In this document: positions 16,393-31,040 of the stretch, piece after piece
Layout of the letters: every line of letters starts with the position of its first letter
Numbering within the stretch: the first letter of the stretch is position 1
DNA from: a virus
Length of the DNA stretch: 32,022 nucleotides
Virus record (IMG/VR): IMGVR_UViG_3300025133_000401
Coordinates: 1-32,022 of that record
Direction: 5' to 3' (one strand)
The notes under the pieces: generated by a model
The model's input: only the letters and a program-made list of their open reading frames with translations
Databases searched by the model: none
What the model was told of the DNA's origin: nothing
Made by a program: the position numbers and the translations under genes

Positions 16393-16949
16393 ACCGCAAG
16401 CCTACTCTTGCCCCGCTTCCCGGCGCTGACTGACAACCGGTCACTATCACGAACCATCTTACCTCGACCACGTCTTGTCGCGCCGCCAAGTGGGGAAGCT
16501 CCCACCTCTGGTTCCGGTTCCGGTTCAGCCAAAGGGATTACAAGGGCCATATCATCCAACTCTCGTTGGCTGGGACCACCTATATCACCTTGGGGGCCGG
16601 AAGATCCTTGGGCTGCATTGCTCGAAACGGCTGCTGTCGTCTGGCCATTGTCTGGCCCCCCTGGCTGTCCATTGACGGTGCCGAAGGAGTTACTATCCGG
16701 GTTCTCCGTTGCATCAACTGTCGCAATGGCTGCTTGAGAATTGGCAATAGAGTTCGCGGCGGCGGCAGTAGCTGCTGCGATATCTGGGTTGGCGGCATCA
16801 TTTGCAGTCGTGCTAGCATTTGCAGCATTTGCAGCAGCGGCACTATTCGCGTTTGATTGCGCCTGTGCAGTCTCAGTCTGATCAACCGTGTCTATCGCAG
16901 CAGCGGCGTTAGCATCGCCGTCGCCGCCACCTCCACCACCACCGCACAT
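16389..16949 (-). CDS. Ala/Asn-rich low-complexity protein with MCGGGG start, function unknown
   Basis: This gene encodes 186 residues. It opens with Met-Cys followed by seven Gly, then has a long Ala, Asn and Thr-rich stretch (about residues 12-100), a Pro/Gly segment and a PEPEPEPE run (about 142-150). It ends in a strongly basic tail (RRGRGKMVRDSDRLSVSAG and beyond). It overlaps the previous stop as TAATG and the portal start as ATGA, so it is translated within the head operon. The layout is shared with the next upstream gene and suggests a virion or head-assembly role. The Cys at position 2 is not a normal lipobox because there is no hydrophobic signal before it. No family is recognised. 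Confidence 0.65.
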   Translation of the reverse strand: MCGGGGGGGDGDANAAAAIDTVDQTETAQAQSNANSAAAANAANASTTANDAANPDIAAATAAAANSIANSQAAIATVDATENPDSNSFGTVNGQPGGPDNGQTTAAVSSNAAQGSSGPQGDIGGPSQRELDDMALVIPLAEPEPEPEVGASPLGGATRRGRGKMVRDSDRLSVSAGKRGKSRLAV

Positions 16950-17179
16950 TACTGCACCACTAATCCGCTGGCCTTGTTAGCCTTCGGATCGCCGCCTACA
17001 GCTAGATCGACCTTCAGAGCGTTACGGCCTTTCTTCTTCGCCACCACACTTTTGTCCTGTTTCTTAGCGTCATCGCCAATCACAGGCGTTAACGGCTCCT
17101 CGCGTGGGGGAGCGGGAGGACGGACAACGGGGGGCGGGGGCGGGGCGGGTGAACTTTTATTCGAACCACCTATACACAT
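16949..17179 (-). CDS. Pro-rich small protein with MCIGG start, function unknown
   Basis: This gene encodes 76 residues, starting MCIGGSNKSSPAPPPPPVVR, followed by a Pro-rich region to about residue 33 and a basic Lys-rich C-terminal half (KKKGRNALKVDLAVGG). Short proteins with an MC or MG start, a polyproline run and a basic end are found near portal genes in other tailed phages by my recollection, but without a firm function. It is the first gene of the virion block, behind a candidate phage promoter, and its stop overlaps the next start. The ribosome binding site AGAGG at about -8 lies in a short potential hairpin (GAGAGGATCTC), which could tune translation. Confidence 0.65.
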   Translation of the reverse strand: MCIGGSNKSSPAPPPPPVVRPPAPPREEPLTPVIGDDAKKQDKSVVAKKKGRNALKVDLAVGGDPKANKASGLVVQ

Positions 17180-17278: not shown

Positions 17279-17297
17279 TCCTATGGTGGGGGGTAAT
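17279..17297 (-). promoter_or_regulatory. Candidate phage RNA polymerase promoter before the virion genes
   Basis: The minus strand reads ATTACCCCCCACCATAGGA. It shares 17 of 19 positions with the site behind the RNA polymerase gene (26614-26632). The CACCATAGGA half resembles the T7 promoter CACTATAGGGA around +1, which places initiation at the G at 17281. The position, between the DNA metabolism block and the head genes, is where T7 has phi 6.5. The function is inferred from the repeated sequence and location. Confidence 0.75.
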
Positions 17298-17321: not shown

Positions 17322-17597
17322 TCAAGGAAAAGGGACATCAATAACACTCTCGCCTCGCAGTTCAGCCTTCCTTCGGCGCAAGTAAGAGATTGCCTTGTCC
17401 AGGTCTTCCTCCCCATTCTTTTCATCCGCCCTCATCGCATATTTGATCACGTTACCAAGCCAGAATGAGAGCTTGTTTTTCATGATAAATTCCAGGGGCT
17501 GTATCTCGTATTGGGCGTAATGATGTGGGTTGTAAACAGTGTCGTTATTCTTTTTATTTCCAGGGAGGTCTCTCAGGTAGTGGTAGTTGGCATCCAT
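17322..17597 (-). CDS. DUF3310 family protein (T7 gp1.7-like nucleotide kinase family)
   Basis: This gene encodes 91 residues. The pattern NPHHYAQYEIQPLEFI, FWLGNVIKYAMRADEKNG, EEDLDKAISYLRRRK is the DUF3310 signature. The family includes T7 gp1.7, which was shown to phosphorylate dGMP and dTMP; gp1.7 itself is about twice this length. A role in nucleotide supply fits the neighbouring exonuclease and ribonucleotide reductase, but kinase activity cannot be assumed for the short form. The ATG at 17597 has an AGAGGAAC ribosome binding site inside the end of the exonuclease gene (25-base overlap). It is the last gene before the candidate virion promoter. Confidence 0.85.
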   Translation of the reverse strand: MDANYHYLRDLPGNKKNNDTVYNPHHYAQYEIQPLEFIMKNKLSFWLGNVIKYAMRADEKNGEEDLDKAISYLRRRKAELRGESVIDVPFP

Positions 17598-18334
17598 AAA
17601 ATAGGTTCCTCTTTACTATCGTCATAATGATCAGCATCAAGGATGTGAGCCAACCGTGCTTGTGTGAGTGCGTGGTCCGCATCCAGACCAGCCTTGTCAT
17701 AGGCGGCGACGATAGCCTCCCACTCACCTACATCTTCACCCCTGCCATCAAGGATCTTAGCCGCCCTCTTCATTCCAATTCCTGGGACACCCTTGTAGCC
17801 ATCAACAGGGTCTCCAGCGATGGATTGCAGCATGTGTAAGCGATGCCCAGCTTCAGGTTCCACAACAACCATTTTCTGTTTGTCCGGGTTCCAATGCTTT
17901 CCAGGGATTTGCAGTAGATCCTTATCGATTGTGACAACGCATTTACGGCCCTTGATGGTCTTGTCACTGGTCATGAGGATGCCGATAACATCATCTGCTT
18001 CCAGGCCAGGGCGTTTATCACAATCGTAATTTGCTTCAGAGTATGCCTTGAGGGCAGGTAGCATGGGAGGTTTTCGCTGGTCTTTTCTATTCGACTTGTA
18101 GCTTGGTTCTAATTTTTTGCGCCAATTCGAAGTGTCGGTGAGACAGATGATTGGATGTGCTTTGAACCGTTCAGTGAAACTTGTGATGATACCATCGAAC
18201 ACGGCTTCAGCATGTTCCGGGTTCTGATCGATAGTGTACTCACCATCCTCCCAGCTACAATGGGTCTCCGTACCCAGAGCAGCGCGGTACAAGAAGATGT
18301 CACCATCGATTAGAAGTGTCTTGTCAGTGGTCAT
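17573..18334 (-). CDS. 5'-3' exonuclease / flap endonuclease, T7 gp6-like
   Basis: I place the start at the ATG at 18334 (253 residues), which has a strong AAAGGAG ribosome binding site. The protein shows the FEN/5'-exonuclease metal ligands in order: LLIDGD (D10, D12), LEADDVIG (E112, D114, D115), TIDKDL (D137, D139) and GDPVDGYKGVPGIGMKRAAK (D175, D178), the last being the helix-hairpin-helix DNA-binding motif. T7 gp6 removes RNA primers and degrades host DNA to feed phage synthesis. Here it would supply nucleotides together with the nearby ribonucleotide reductase. It overlaps the preceding small gene by 11 bases. Confidence 0.93.
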   Translation of the reverse strand: MTTDKTLLIDGDIFLYRAALGTETHCSWEDGEYTIDQNPEHAEAVFDGIITSFTERFKAHPIICLTDTSNWRKKLEPSYKSNRKDQRKPPMLPALKAYSEANYDCDKRPGLEADDVIGILMTSDKTIKGRKCVVTIDKDLLQIPGKHWNPDKQKMVVVEPEAGHRLHMLQSIAGDPVDGYKGVPGIGMKRAAKILDGRGEDVGEWEAIVAAYDKAGLDADHALTQARLAHILDADHYDDSKEEPILWMPTTTT

Positions 18335-18539
18335 GACACTCTCCTTTCGAATTGTTCGGGTGGGGTATTGGAATGATATAAGAGATGCGATCCCCCGCAC
18401 GGACCTCCATGTCGTGAAGCTCCATTAAGGTTGGGGTGCCTATGGGGGTATCTTCATCTTCGTGGCTATACACCTCGACGTATCCAGTTGAGAAGACGAC
18501 TGAGAACGCAAAGATGTGCGGCAGTGGGTGATCACCCAC
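18324..18539 (-). CDS. Small protein between ribonucleotide reductase and exonuclease, function unknown
   Basis: This gene encodes 71 residues from a GTG at 18539, overlapping the reductase stop by 8 bases and the exonuclease start by 11. The ribosome binding site is weak (AGAAAGA). The sequence starts with a hydrophobic beta-like part (LPHIFAFSVVFSTGYVEVYS), then an acidic loop (HEDEDTPIG) and a second beta part (GDRISYIIPIPH). No membrane anchor or enzyme motif is evident. The overlaps on both sides fit a translated gene in a compact operon. I cannot name a family. A small modulator of a neighbouring enzyme is possible, but unsupported. Confidence 0.55.
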   Translation of the reverse strand: MGDHPLPHIFAFSVVFSTGYVEVYSHEDEDTPIGTPTLMELHDMEVRAGDRISYIIPIPHPNNSKGECHDH

Positions 18540-26302: not shown

Positions 26303-26573
26303 CATCCATCTCCTCCTCCAGGTAGTTGCGAACCGCCCGAAACTCCGGGCGCATCGTCGTCCCGTCGTCGTGGTTCATCAAATTTGAAGCCATGCCTAAG
26401 ACGCGCCGGGGATCGACGTGATAGCGGGAGCAGAGCAGAAGGAAAGACACAGCCAACCCCAGTGCCCGTGTCTCAGACGGGAATCTCTGTAGACTGTCTA
26501 CGACCTGCATAGCGGCGTTGCCGGTGGGCCGTACCGCCGCCATAGAGAGCTTGTCATCGATACGAGATTTCAT
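26295..26573 (-). CDS. Small protein of the early/middle region, function unknown
   Basis: This gene encodes 92 residues and is the first one behind the candidate promoter that follows the RNA polymerase gene. The ATG at 26573 has purine-rich AAAGGAAG and AGAGGA stretches upstream. The protein is mainly helical: an N-terminal part with METHASE-like basic residues (KSRIDDKLSMAAVRPTGNAA), a helix LGLAVSFLLLCSRYHVDPRR and an acidic end (RNYLEEEMDDD). The hydrophobic LAVSFLLLC stretch is short for a membrane span. Its stop is overlapped by the next start. I recognise no family. By analogy with T7 genes 1.1 to 2 it might act on the host, but nothing in the sequence shows it. Confidence 0.65.
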   Translation of the reverse strand: MKSRIDDKLSMAAVRPTGNAAMQVVDSLQRFPSETRALGLAVSFLLLCSRYHVDPRRVLGMASNLMNHDDGTTMRPEFRAVRNYLEEEMDDD

Positions 26574-26613: not shown

Positions 26614-26632
26614 TCCTATGGTGTCGGGTAAT
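26614..26632 (-). promoter_or_regulatory. Candidate phage RNA polymerase promoter after the polymerase gene
   Basis: The minus strand reads ATTACCCGACACCATAGGA in the 84-base gap between the RNA polymerase gene and the next gene. It matches the site before the virion genes (17279-17297) at 17 of 19 positions, and its upstream half matches the site before the polymerase gene (29215-29234). The CACCATAGGA half resembles the T7 core CACTATAGGGA, placing the start at the first G of AGG. T7 has phi 1.1 in the corresponding place. Confidence 0.78.
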
Positions 26633-26657: not shown

Positions 26658-29174
26658 CTAAGCGAAAAAAAAGTCACAATCCACCACCTGCTTGAGGTCA
26701 AGCTTCCCCATTGGAAGTCGAGGCGGGATCTTGTGACGATGCTTTTCATCGATTTGCTTTTCGATGTCGGCGGCGAATTTCTCCAATACCGGCTGTTCGT
26801 ACATCTCCACGAAAGCCTCACGTAGACACTTAGCCATCGTCGGAGCGTCGGCTGCGTGGGTACCATACGAGTCATGCACCATCGCGAAACCTGTGATGCC
26901 GTGGTTAGCGGCGAGATTCACTGTCTTGATCATCGCGGATGCGTCCATCGAATGCACGTAGTTTGGAGAGATCCCGGCCTGTTGTTTACGCCTATCGATT
27001 TTCGACCAGTTGTCCTCCCGCACTGTGAGTTTGATTCTCTTTCCCGCGATTGATGTCTCGACCCGCCGGTCTCTGACGTTCGGGTAGGCTTGCTGCACTG
27101 GGAACCCTACGGGTGTGACCCAATGGACTGGGAGACCCGACAGTGACGCCAGCTTGGACATGTTTTTCAACCAGGACATGACATCAGCGGCTGCACCAAC
27201 GACATCTTCGATCACCTGCCACAAGGTGGTAGCGAGGTACGCCGCTGCCTTCTCCCCCTTGGAGTCGAAGGGGTTAACTCCACCCGGCTCAAATCGAAGA
27301 GGGTTGATCGTGTCATTGAGGATTTGGTCGGTCATCCCGTAGACGGTGGCGCTGTACGAATATGTCATGACCGGCCTCTTCACTGTAGATCTAGTCACCC
27401 CATATTCCAGCCATTGCGCGGCAAGGCGGCGATGATCGTACTGATTGGGAGGCCCGTACAGGTCTTCATCTACCGCCGCATGGAGTTTCTCGACCACGGC
27501 GTCAGCCACGACGGCGTAGATGTCGGCTGGAGTGGACTGGGGCACCAGATTGACGAGACGGCCAGTGTCTACTGAGAGGACTAGAGCAGACATATGCTGG
27601 AGGCCGTTGTTTGAACCGTCCATCGCACACACGAGGTGTGAATAGTGGTCGTCGCCTTTCTGTGCAGCCGACATCGCGGCGGTGAAATCGAAGATCGCAG
27701 CCAAGGCTTGCCAGGGTTTGTCGCCGTCACACCACTCGATGTTGTTGATGGGATCTCCTGCGATCCGCCTCCACAGATCTAGATTTTCCACGGCGTAATC
27801 GATCCGCCCCTGAAGCGGCAGCTTGTCCTTGCCCATGGTATTGGCAACTTGGATCGCGATCCAGCACATCGCCTCCTCACTGTCAACGAGACGACCATCG
27901 CCAAATTCTATCAGGCCTTTTTGGAGATCGTCGCCTTGGGGGCCGAGCGCGGGGCTGTTCGAGACGTAAGCCCTGCCTCTAAAATCGAGCGTCCAAATAT
28001 AGTATAGAGGCTCGTCTTGGTATCGCTGCGCCATGTAGATAGTCCGATCTGTTGCCATGTTGCGGCTGATCCGGCGTCGATGGGCCTCATAGGCCATAGC
28101 GGCGGATCGTTTCCAGTCCTTCAGGGCAGAAGTGGAGGTGTCGATGTCATGTGGTCGAGGTGGGAGGTCTACGTCATCGACGGACGCCAAGGGTTTTGGC
28201 AGCCCAGCCAGCGTGAGGGATCTTTCCCGGAAGTGCTCCGCGACCTCCAGCACTTGCCAATTCACCCTCCAACTCACCTCCTGGAGCGTGTTGACTGCCT
28301 TGTAAACTTCCGGCATCTCCCAGTTCGACACCTCCTCCAGGTAGTTCCTATTTCGGGTCTTGATCAGCGTGAGGTTGGCGGGAGATCTGGTGAGGAGGCC
28401 TCCGTCGAAAGGGTTTGTCCAGGGCTTCGGTGGGCAAACCATAGGCATCAAGACGGGTGAGAGAAGCTCGTCTCGTGAGTTTTTGTTGGCAATTGCCTGG
28501 AGACATTTGTCAGTCGGATACAGCGTCTTGATTGATGACCTCCATGCGCCGCGCCGCCCGATCCCAGACGTTGAGCCGTTCGCACCCACCTCAATCAGGC
28601 CGGTTGAGGTGCGAAAGAGATCGATGATCTTGACACCAAGCAGGACTTTCTCGCGATTTGTCCATGGCTTCCACTCCACGCCAAATCGGTCCATCATCGC
28701 CGTTAGCACCCGCCGCTTGTGTATGTAATTTGAGGTGCGCTTATTGAGTGATTCCAGCAAAACACGGCAATACCCCGGCATAGCCGAATGAAAACGAGAG
28801 AACCTGATCTCGTCTTCGATGACATTACCGATCTGCTGGCCGACTGATTGAAGCGCGGCAGGGCGTATCACTTTGTCGATGATCACTTTGGCGGCGAGGT
28901 ACGCCGACACGTCCGGGTCGATCTCATCAAGGAGACGGGCAGCTAAAAAGCGGGGACCAGCCTTGCCCGAATTTGCATCCCCAGCGAAATCAGCGATGGC
29001 GTCGGACAAGGGCTGGATGGCTAACCCAACCAAACTATTCCCGGTTTTCGAGAGGCTGTAACGCTCCATCGTACTCGCCTCCGAATCTTGCGCCCGGTAC
29101 CGGGCTATGCCCATCAGGGTTTGCTCCTCTTCGATGTCCAATTGTTTCTGACGTTGCACTGCTTCATCGACCAT
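26658..29174 (-). CDS. Single-subunit DNA-directed RNA polymerase, T7 gp1-like
   Basis: This 838-residue enzyme transcribes the middle and late phage genes from phage promoters. All catalytic residues of T7 RNA polymerase have counterparts: D519 in AMDGSNNGLQHMSA (T7 D537), R595, K599 and Y607 in TRSTVKRPVMTYSYSA (T7 R627, K631, Y639), H741 in PNYVHSMDAS (T7 H784) and D768 in MVHDSYGTHAAD (T7 D812). WTLDFRGRAYVSN (about 394-406) is also conserved. It ends CDFFFA, like the T7 C-terminal foot FAFA. T7 gp1 has 883 residues; the N-terminal promoter-binding domain here is shorter and diverged, fitting its different promoter. The ATG at 29174 follows GAGAGGG. It is placed right after attP. Confidence 0.97.
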   Translation of the reverse strand: MVDEAVQRQKQLDIEEEQTLMGIARYRAQDSEASTMERYSLSKTGNSLVGLAIQPLSDAIADFAGDANSGKAGPRFLAARLLDEIDPDVSAYLAAKVIIDKVIRPAALQSVGQQIGNVIEDEIRFSRFHSAMPGYCRVLLESLNKRTSNYIHKRRVLTAMMDRFGVEWKPWTNREKVLLGVKIIDLFRTSTGLIEVGANGSTSGIGRRGAWRSSIKTLYPTDKCLQAIANKNSRDELLSPVLMPMVCPPKPWTNPFDGGLLTRSPANLTLIKTRNRNYLEEVSNWEMPEVYKAVNTLQEVSWRVNWQVLEVAEHFRERSLTLAGLPKPLASVDDVDLPPRPHDIDTSTSALKDWKRSAAMAYEAHRRRISRNMATDRTIYMAQRYQDEPLYYIWTLDFRGRAYVSNSPALGPQGDDLQKGLIEFGDGRLVDSEEAMCWIAIQVANTMGKDKLPLQGRIDYAVENLDLWRRIAGDPINNIEWCDGDKPWQALAAIFDFTAAMSAAQKGDDHYSHLVCAMDGSNNGLQHMSALVLSVDTGRLVNLVPQSTPADIYAVVADAVVEKLHAAVDEDLYGPPNQYDHRRLAAQWLEYGVTRSTVKRPVMTYSYSATVYGMTDQILNDTINPLRFEPGGVNPFDSKGEKAAAYLATTLWQVIEDVVGAAADVMSWLKNMSKLASLSGLPVHWVTPVGFPVQQAYPNVRDRRVETSIAGKRIKLTVREDNWSKIDRRKQQAGISPNYVHSMDASAMIKTVNLAANHGITGFAMVHDSYGTHAADAPTMAKCLREAFVEMYEQPVLEKFAADIEKQIDEKHRHKIPPRLPMGKLDLKQVVDCDFFFA

Positions 29175-29214: not shown

Positions 29215-29234
29215 TCCATAGGGTGTCGGCTAAT
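29215..29234 (-). promoter_or_regulatory. Possible phage promoter before the RNA polymerase gene
   Basis: The minus strand reads ATTAGCCGACACCCTATGGA. The first 13 bases match the site at 26614-26632 except for one base; the start region differs by one extra base (CCTATGGA instead of CATAGGA). It lies 40 bases before the polymerase start codon. It could be a weaker or diverged promoter giving self-amplification of the polymerase. The altered start region lowers confidence. Confidence 0.5.
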
Positions 29235-29297
29235 TCCCGTCACAAAAAACGTCACAAGATAGAATTACCATGCTAATCGTTGCCGATAAGAGAATGA

Positions 29298-29430: not shown

Positions 29431-29443
29431 AATGCACGAAACG

Positions 29444-30502
29444 TCACGAAACGTCACGAAAAGTCACAGGAAAAGTCACAATTTCTGGTCTCGTTTCGAG
29501 TAGCGATGCTGCTTCTGCGAGTTGCACAGGTGACAGATGTGCATAGCGGAGCGTCATGATCAAAGTCTTATGGCCTAGGTATTTTTGAACAACCTGAATC
29601 GGTGCGCCACGTTGCACCAAGCGACTAGCGCAAGTGTGCCTAGTCACATGGAAGGTGGTCTGCCAGTCATCGCTCAGACCAACGGTTTTTCGCATGTTAT
29701 GCCAGGATTTGTGCACCTCCTTGTATTTAAGGCGAAAGAGGCTATGCACCGCGCCCTTCTTAATTCGGTCCTCCATGACCTTTCGTACCCTGCCAGTCAT
29801 TGGTACAGATCGTGGCAGATTCCCTTTGTTTTTCCAAATTGATATTTGATTGGTCTCAAAAATTATATCCTTGGTAGGCTGCTCCAAGATCTCGCTGACA
29901 CGCATCCCGGTGTCCAGTCCGATTATCGTGAGATGCTCTAGGTCTCTATCACCAGTGTCACGAAAGTACTGGAGAATCTGGTCTTCCTCGTCATAAGAAA
30001 GATACCTGATGCGCCCTGGAGCCTCCTTGCGCCGCTCTATGAGCGGTACACGGCTGATCCAGCCTCGCTTGTGGGCGAAGCGCATCATCCGGGAGAGTGC
30101 AGCCAGCTTGCGGTTGATGGTACCATCCCTATTCCCCAGGCCGTCGAGGTGGTCGATCAGATCGTCTACGTCATCGTCAGAGATGGTGTCGGCTGGGCGA
30201 TCTGCACCCAGAAATTCAGCGACAACCTCCCCACTCCGATATAGCTCCTTGCCGGATTTCGCCTTCCGCCAATATTTTTTCTCCGTGCGGTCTAATAGCT
30301 CCCGCAACGAGAGGGTCGTGGAAGGCGTAGAGGAGGATGTAGCACCAATGTCTGGAATCGGTAAGCTTTGGGACAGAGAGGCCTTGATTAAGGCCTCACG
30401 CACCTCTGCTTCGACTCTCGTGCCAGAAAACTGCTCACGGTGCACACGCCCCTTCACCTGGATCTTGATTTGGTAACCATTAGATCTTTCATATATCGAC
30501 AT
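29444..30502 (-). CDS. int: Tyrosine-recombinase integrase
   Basis: This 352-residue protein has the full catalytic set: R201 (LDTGMRVSE), K226 in the beta-hairpin (IWKNKGNLPRSVP), H285 and R288 (FHVTRHTCASRL), H311 (YLGHKT) and Y320 (TLRYAHLSP). Residues 1-60 contain a small N-terminal domain (SNGYQIKIQVKGRVHREQF) of the kind that binds arm sites. Residues 60-160 are the core-binding domain. It would integrate the phage at a host attB using attP next to the gene. The ATG at 30502 has a GAAGGGG ribosome binding site in the end of the MarR-like gene. The last codons are formed from the GTGACTTTTC/GTGACGTTTC repeats of the candidate attP. Confidence 0.96.
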   Translation of the reverse strand: MSIYERSNGYQIKIQVKGRVHREQFSGTRVEAEVREALIKASLSQSLPIPDIGATSSSTPSTTLSLRELLDRTEKKYWRKAKSGKELYRSGEVVAEFLGADRPADTISDDDVDDLIDHLDGLGNRDGTINRKLAALSRMMRFAHKRGWISRVPLIERRKEAPGRIRYLSYDEEDQILQYFRDTGDRDLEHLTIIGLDTGMRVSEILEQPTKDIIFETNQISIWKNKGNLPRSVPMTGRVRKVMEDRIKKGAVHSLFRLKYKEVHKSWHNMRKTVGLSDDWQTTFHVTRHTCASRLVQRGAPIQVVQKYLGHKTLIMTLRYAHLSPVQLAEAASLLETRPEIVTFPVTFRDVS

Positions 30503-30505
30503 TTT

Positions 30506-30880
30506 CTACCCCTTCAATGAATCCGCTACCATCCGCCCCCTAGGCGTGATTTCCACTAGTTTCAGCCGCCGGTCTCTGGGGTTTTCGAACCGCTTCACGA
30601 GGCCTAGGCCAGCCCCCTTCCGGGTGCGCCCTGACTGAAGCTCGTTCCGATACCTATCAACGTCGGAGAGGTCAGCGACGATCCTACTGACAACCGACTG
30701 CGTCAGCCCCAGCCCCTGCGAGATATCGTACTGGCCAACAGGCTCTTGACTACTTGCCACGGCCAAAAAAACGAGCATCGTGTTCACCTGCATTTCGGGA
30801 TTAAGCTTTCGAAATTCAGTCAGGATTCGATAAGCACCGCCCATCTCTCTCTTGGTTGCATTTTGCTTCAGATTCAACAT
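30506..30880 (-). CDS. MarR-like winged-helix transcription regulator
   Basis: I favour the ATG at 30880 (124 residues), preceded by GAAAGGTTGAGAGAG; a TTG at 30907 would add nine residues. The protein has a MarR-type layout: a helical N terminus (TEFRKLNPEMQVNTMLVFLA), a helix-turn-helix (YDISQGLGLTQSVVSRIVADL), and a wing with KRFENPRDRRLKLVEITPRG, the classic MarR DxR wing. It probably acts as a dimeric DNA-binding regulator, perhaps for lysogeny control. It lies 3 bases upstream of the integrase gene, so the two are co-transcribed. A 13-bp palindrome just before the start may be its own operator. The family is confident, the regulated step is inferred. Confidence 0.85.
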   Translation of the reverse strand: MLNLKQNATKREMGGAYRILTEFRKLNPEMQVNTMLVFLAVASSQEPVGQYDISQGLGLTQSVVSRIVADLSDVDRYRNELQSGRTRKGAGLGLVKRFENPRDRRLKLVEITPRGRMVADSLKG

Positions 30881-31040
30881 CTCTCTCAACCTTTCTCGGT
30901 GTGACAATGACTGTCATTTTGTGCATGAAGAACATGTACTCACCTAAAATTCTTTCCATTGAGAACCCCATCGGGGTTTGCTTGGCATCCCATTCCGCGA
31001 ATACTAGCCCAAAAAAAGGCAGTCGGAAAAGAAAATTCAT
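30816..31040 (-). CDS. Possible 74-residue protein overlapping the MarR-like gene start
   Basis: A frame with an ATG at 31040 and a good AGAGAGG ribosome binding site encodes 74 residues and ends 65 bases inside the MarR-like gene. The N terminus is hydrophobic and aromatic (MNFLFRLPFFGLVFAEWDAK), followed by a Met-rich middle (MERILGEYMFFMHKMTVIV) and a basic, charged end. The long overlap with a well-supported gene argues against it; the ribosome binding site and position argue for it. It may be a leader that couples translation to the regulator. The hairpin AACCCCGATGGGGTT (30964-30978) lies inside it. Function unknown. Confidence 0.35.
   Translation of the reverse strand: MNFLFRLPFFGLVFAEWDAKQTPMGFSMERILGEYMFFMHKMTVIVTPRKVERDVESEAKCNQERDGRCLSNPD
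30906..30918. promoter_or_regulatory. 13-bp palindrome, candidate operator of the MarR-like regulator
   Basis: AATGACTGTCATT is a perfect inverted repeat around the central T at 30912. It lies 26 bases before the preferred start codon of the MarR-like gene. MarR proteins bind such short palindromes and often repress their own gene. Binding here is inferred. Confidence 0.45.

Follow-up and report, generated by a model that had tools for sequence, protein, structure and literature searches.

Whether the T7-type RNA polymerase (RNAP) of an uncultured temperate phage starts transcription at two nearly identical 19-base sequences in its own genome is the question raised by the 32,022-base virus record analysed here (the window). 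The genes of the window lie on the minus strand in a T7-like order. A MarR-like gene, a tyrosine integrase gene and the RNAP gene stand in sequence, as in temperate T7-like phages of the LUZ100/RHEph01 type, ahead of genes for SSB, primase-helicase, DNA polymerase, ribonucleotide reductase, exonuclease and DUF3310, which are followed by those for portal, scaffold, capsid, tail tubes, internal virion proteins and fibre (Table 1). The RNAP retains the catalytic residues D537, K631, Y639 and D812, and the closest known RNAPs are 35–39% identical to it. No close relatives were found in viral contigs with the single RNAP sequence of the window as query, positions 1–25000 had no megablast match among phages, and no host DNA or tRNA was detected in the record. 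Fragments from two other metagenomes (L133, IMGVR_UViG_3300008050_001231, and L107, IMGVR_UViG_3300025103_003431) are 99.8–99.9% identical to the window and represent the same phage species; L107 carries the 17279 site unchanged.

Table 1. Predicted promoters and associated features of the window (all on the minus strand).
Feature	Position	Strand	Basis
Predicted promoter after RNAP gene (phi1.1 place), ATTACCCGACACCATAGGA	26614..26632	-	Motif search, neutral template, relatives' places
Predicted promoter before portal block (phi6.5 place), ATTACCCCCCACCATAGGA	17279..17297	-	Motif search, neutral template, relatives' places
Weaker third candidate promoter upstream of RNAP gene, ATTAGCCGACACCCTATGG(A)	29216..29234	-	Motif, template, place
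Pair of GTGACG repeats immediately ahead of the third candidate	29238..29255	-	
T7-type RNA polymerase, 838 aa	26658..29174	-	phrog_414 (E 2e-231), PF00940
RNAP specificity loop; Glu706, Arg713, Lys715 at T7 positions 748, 756, 758	27000..27074	-	Alignment
Tyrosine integrase	29444..30502	-	PF00589
MarR-like regulator	30506..30907	-	Below Pfam cut-off; place as in LUZ100

A preliminary description had proposed that the two sequences, which it reported to share 17 of 19 coding-strand bases and to lie in gaps, are promoters for a T7-type polymerase with a new consensus. The coordinates and the count are correct. The window contains the pattern ATTACCC-NN-CACCATAGGA exactly twice, both times on the coding strand and in a gap, with no further site within three mismatches of the two-site consensus; the search pattern was derived from the two sites themselves, so this is circular and provides no independent proof. 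A comparison of all 11 intergenic gaps (1566 bases) yielded 17/19 as the best pair between any two of them, a value reached in none of 300 dinucleotide shuffles of the gaps, in which the best agreement was 16 (19 of 300). The agreement is therefore above chance, and the window by itself constitutes moderate evidence only. When the sites were ranked with a neutral template, ATTA.....CAC..TAG, which leaves positions −12 to −8 and −4/−3 free, the top ranks on the coding strand were taken by the 26614 and 17279 sites (10/10 each) and by the candidate at 29216–29234 (9/10). The motif consists of 19 non-palindromic bases ending in CATAGGA, in a register shared with the promoters of LUZ100, T7 and T3.

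The places of the two sites are those of T7 phi1.1 and phi6.5, as had been suggested. The first begins 26 bases past the RNAP stop (26658), with a predicted start at 26616, 43 bases ahead of an ATG at 26573. The second lies between DUF3310/exonuclease (17322–18400) and the small genes preceding the portal gene, and its predicted start at 17281 is about 100 bases ahead of an ATG at 17179. Its equivalence to phi6.5 is judged from the neighbouring genes only, because the gene at 16949–17179 has no BLAST similarity to LUZ100 gp31.

The preliminary description had also proposed a scan of related phages for the motif. We performed an exact scan of IMG/VR and then re-read whole records with up to three mismatches. 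The contigs from the exact scan were mostly T7-like, and sites were found 7, 8, 6 and 7 times in G001, G002, G003 and G010, respectively, all on one strand, compared to no match of a reversed control pattern in the same four genomes at the same tolerance. A Rhizobiales prophage (G013), detected in a scan of bacterial genomes, has six sites. The motif thus recurs six to eight times per genome, on the coding strand only, in five other T7-like phages or prophages. A lack of conservation in relatives had been named as a ground for rejecting the promoter reading, and the reading withstands this check. Their consensus is ATTACCCCTCACCATAG(G/C)(A/C), and all IMG/VR contigs with ATTACCCCTCACCATAG in a 17-base exact scan carry T7-like genes. 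The sites in G002, G010 and G013 are located upstream of RNAP, about 35 bases past the RNAP stop, ahead of SSB, downstream of the lysozyme gene, in the gap between the exonuclease gene and the small pre-portal gene, and after terL. The 26614 and 17279 sites occupy two of these places, and places relative to genes are shared among these three genomes, RHEph01 and LUZ100. The number of strong sites is lower in the 32-kb window, two compared with six to eight per relative genome. No promoter site was found ahead of the capsid gene in the window, and the place after terL is beyond the record, which ends before the terminase genes.

The scan of bacterial genomes used 16 fixed bases in 257 billion, for which we estimate about 120 chance matches; 63 stretches were found. 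Eight of the genomes were searched again with mismatches, and only those with clustered sites were taken further. A Rickettsiales genome (G019) with a weak pair of sites among ordinary bacterial genes was attributed to chance, as were the single matches in L106, G009 and G696. Portal relatives with other RNAPs (G022–G034) lack the template in the RNAP flanks and portal-upstream regions, with the exception of one D748 phage present in two records (G028, G029) with ATTAACCCACACAATAA; they were treated as uninformative. In one genome of this set the T7-like RNAP gene (G024:C1:13622-16033; L267, L269, L270) was matched in three pieces, one of them with a TAA, and is either a broken gene or a sequencing error.

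Experimental data are available for LUZ100, whose phage promoters phi1–phi8 were mapped by ONT-cappable-seq (PMC10134795). They read ATTACCACACAG(G/T)(T/C)(A/T)TGGA, except for the annotated phi5, which does not fit. LUZ100 shares with the window ATTACC at −16 to −11, the start G, the spacing and the gene order, including MarR-integrase-RNAP, and the window sites match the places of phi1 upstream of RNAP, phi2 after RNAP, and phi6 in front of the small pre-portal gene. Its promoter has 12 of 19 positions in common with the window motif, whereas its RNAP is only 36% identical, with Asp, Arg and Leu in place of the window's Glu, Arg and Lys at the T7 positions 748, 756 and 758. The best sites of G001–G003, G010 and G013 match all 17 specified bases at the same places, and their RNAPs share Glu at 748 and Arg at 756 with the window; they differ from it in having CT at −9/−8 with Gln758 and more sites per genome, and their RNAPs are 35–36% identical to that of the window. 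The T3 promoter ATTAACCCTCACTAAAGGG agrees at 13–14 of 19 positions, including ATTA, CC at −11/−10, CAC at −7 to −5 and AG at −1/+1, and its polymerase also has an acidic residue (Asp) at 748; the differences are A at −12, AAA at −3 to −1, and CT at −9/−8 with Gln758. For the T7 promoter TAATACGACTCACTATAGGG the agreement is 12–13 of 19, with CAC at −7 to −5, ATAG at −3 to +1 and the genome places of phi1.1 and phi6.5 in common. T7 has GA at −11/−10 with Asn748 and CT at −9/−8 with Arg756/Gln758, compared to CC at −11/−10 and CC or GA at −9/−8 with Glu, Arg and Lys in the window. The promoter of Rhizobium phage RHEph01 was predicted as ATTACCCCTCCCTTAAGCAAAG and was inactive in a cell-free screen (PMC11475235). 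We found RHEph01 sites ATTACCCCTC(A/C)CTTAAG on both sides of the RNAP gene, ahead of the portal block and downstream of terL; they share the ATTACCC left half and the places around RNAP and before the portal block with the window, but their right half is CTTAAG.

These comparisons qualify the claim of novelty. T7-type promoters are known as a kind, and LUZ100 already provides an example of the ATTACC left half, which has also been predicted in RHEph01. The left half differs from the T7 specificity region, as had been noted, in having CC and not GA at −11/−10, but it is nearer to T3 (ATTAACCC) and to LUZ100 and RHEph01 than to T7, and the motif is common to several phages. The exact spelling is new in the sense that it was not found in the literature retrieved by the left half of the motif. 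The window promoter is almost certainly real but fairly ordinary, in a new spelling. Promoter and polymerase together form a testable pair from a temperate, T7-like phage that has not been cultured; the prediction of cognate promoters has been named as the bottleneck to the use of new phage polymerases (PMC11475235).

T7 RNAP contacts −10/−11 through N748, −9 through R756 and −8 through Q758, and the T7 promoter tolerates almost no change at −9/−8 (PMC5937735). The residues at 748, 756 and 758 are Glu, Arg, Lys in the window, Glu, Arg, Gln in G001–G013, Asp, Arg, Gln in T3 and RHEph01, and Lys, Leu, Tyr in CRP-125. We called promoters beside 91 RNAPs with the neutral template, ignoring the bases under test, and clustered the RNAPs at 60% identity. 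There were 38 sense matches compared to one antisense match (at least 9/10). C at −11 was found in 8 of 9 RNAP clusters with an acidic residue at 748 and in none of 5 with a basic residue (p = 0.003 by Fisher's exact test, on a small number of independent clusters, 14 in all). The sole acidic exception is L179/L181, which may represent a register slip, as the neighbouring L178 reads ATTACCC. Promoter bases are in this way tied to specificity-loop residues across about 90 polymerases, and the window, with Glu at the 748 position and CC at −11/−10, conforms to the relationship.

Lys748 is often paired with ATTAGGT, an SP6-like spelling. Promoters of this type were observed beside the RNAP genes of L204, L217, L225, L245 and CRP-125 (L132), all with Lys748, and the ATTAGGT type makes up a second large class of promoters among marine T7-like phages.

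The two bases left open as NN in the initial motif do differ between the window sites (CC, GA), but they are positions −9/−8, which are strict in T7 and CT in the relatives. T at −8 is paired with Gln758 in T7, RHEph01 and G001–G013, though not in L184, and Lys or Arg at 758 is paired with C or A at −8. The three window sites have CC, GA and GA with Arg/Lys, compared to CT in the G001–G013 relatives with Gln758. The change of Gln758 to Lys is thus a partial explanation: it fits the loss of T at −8 in the window but not the mixture of CC, GA and GA within one genome.

These observations lead us to conclude with high confidence that the two sites serve as promoters of the T7-type RNAP which the phage itself encodes, with transcription starting at the first G that follows CATA. 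Counting against this reading are the unequal −9/−8 bases among the window's own sites, the small number of strong sites, the low identity of the RNAPs compared (35–39%) and the inactivity of the RHEph01 prediction. The sites could instead be operators or recombination sites of another phage protein, the MarR-like repressor or the integrase, both of which the phage encodes, and one candidate site adjoins GTGACG repeats. We consider this very unlikely, as the sites are always on the coding strand, are not palindromic, carry the T7-type CAC.ATAG ending and stand ahead of late genes, LUZ100 sites of the same type are mapped transcript starts, and the bases covary with RNAP residue 748. Less probable still is a role at the RNA level, for instance as an RNase III site or a leader structure: T3 RNase III sites do adjoin several T3 promoters, but here conservation ends with the start G, the motif lacks self-complementarity, the downstream leaders differ, and the covariation with the polymerase would be left unexplained. 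The least credible alternative is a chance match; a bare 17/19 is not rare genome-wide (we estimate about three such pairs among all same-strand 19-mers of the 32-kb window), but within the gaps no shuffle reached it, and chance is refuted by the recurrence of the same 17 bases at the same places in unrelated records.

With the sites taken as promoters, we infer binding, start sites and timing by analogy with T7 and LUZ100. Host RNAP transcription through the MarR-integrase region would yield the first phage RNAP, which would perhaps amplify its own gene from the weak 29216 site and would then initiate at 26616 for the replication genes and at 17281 for the portal/capsid block. In the specificity loop, Glu706 (T7 748) would read C at −11/−10, and Glu706 together with Arg713 would read the −11 to −9 region.

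The third candidate adds a weaker copy to the two strong ones originally described. It matches the motif at 13 of 17 positions, shares GA at −9/−8 with the 26614 site, and has a start G that lies one base further on than that of the two strong sites. The neutral template also reaches 9/10 once on the other strand, within the portal gene, and therefore the case for the 29216 site is carried by its place, about 43 bases ahead of the RNAP ATG, which is that of LUZ100 phi1 and is conserved in relatives. The LUZ100 MarR protein has been proposed as the repressor of the corresponding promoter. By analogy, it is possible that the GTGACG repeats in front of the 29216 site are MarR operators; it is equally possible that they are integrase arm sites. 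A second pair of GTGACG direct repeats is present at 29442–29457, at the 3' end of the integrase gene.

The motif is also usable as a probe, and it led us to integrated elements without a polymerase, which are possible satellites of T7-like phages. Clustered sites are present in Brucella pituitosa (G015) and Neorhizobium xiangyangii (G014), with four copies in each integrated element of about 12 kb (L122:7779-19434 in G015; L125/L126, G014:C14 at about 80–93 kb), and no RNAP-family gene was found anywhere in either genome. In both elements an 18-base tRNA 3' end is exactly repeated 11.6 and 12.6 kb away, from tRNA-Leu in Brucella (L122 7779–7796 and 19417–19434) and from tRNA-Ala in Neorhizobium. 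The repeats enclose genes for an integrase, an internal virion protein, RNase H, Rha, MarR and a resolvase; two of the promoter sites precede the internal-virion-protein gene, and the other two lie ahead of or within the Rha gene. The MarR protein is 38% identical to that of LUZ100 in Brucella and 59% identical between the two elements. The Neorhizobium element also has gp13- and gp14-like genes, and the Brucella element a TIR-domain CAP12-type gene. The compact size, intact ends and shared layout would favour a satellite over a decayed prophage. A literature search for satellites of T7-like phages found nothing relevant. We tentatively suggest, as a quite possible reading of the gene content, that the motif is a start signal common to a group of temperate T7-like phages and taken over by polymerase-free satellites, which would be switched on by the RNAP of a T7-like helper. 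A third element (G417; L288/L289) has internal-virion, MarR and resolvase genes together with a single site, ATTACCCCTCAGTATAGGA.
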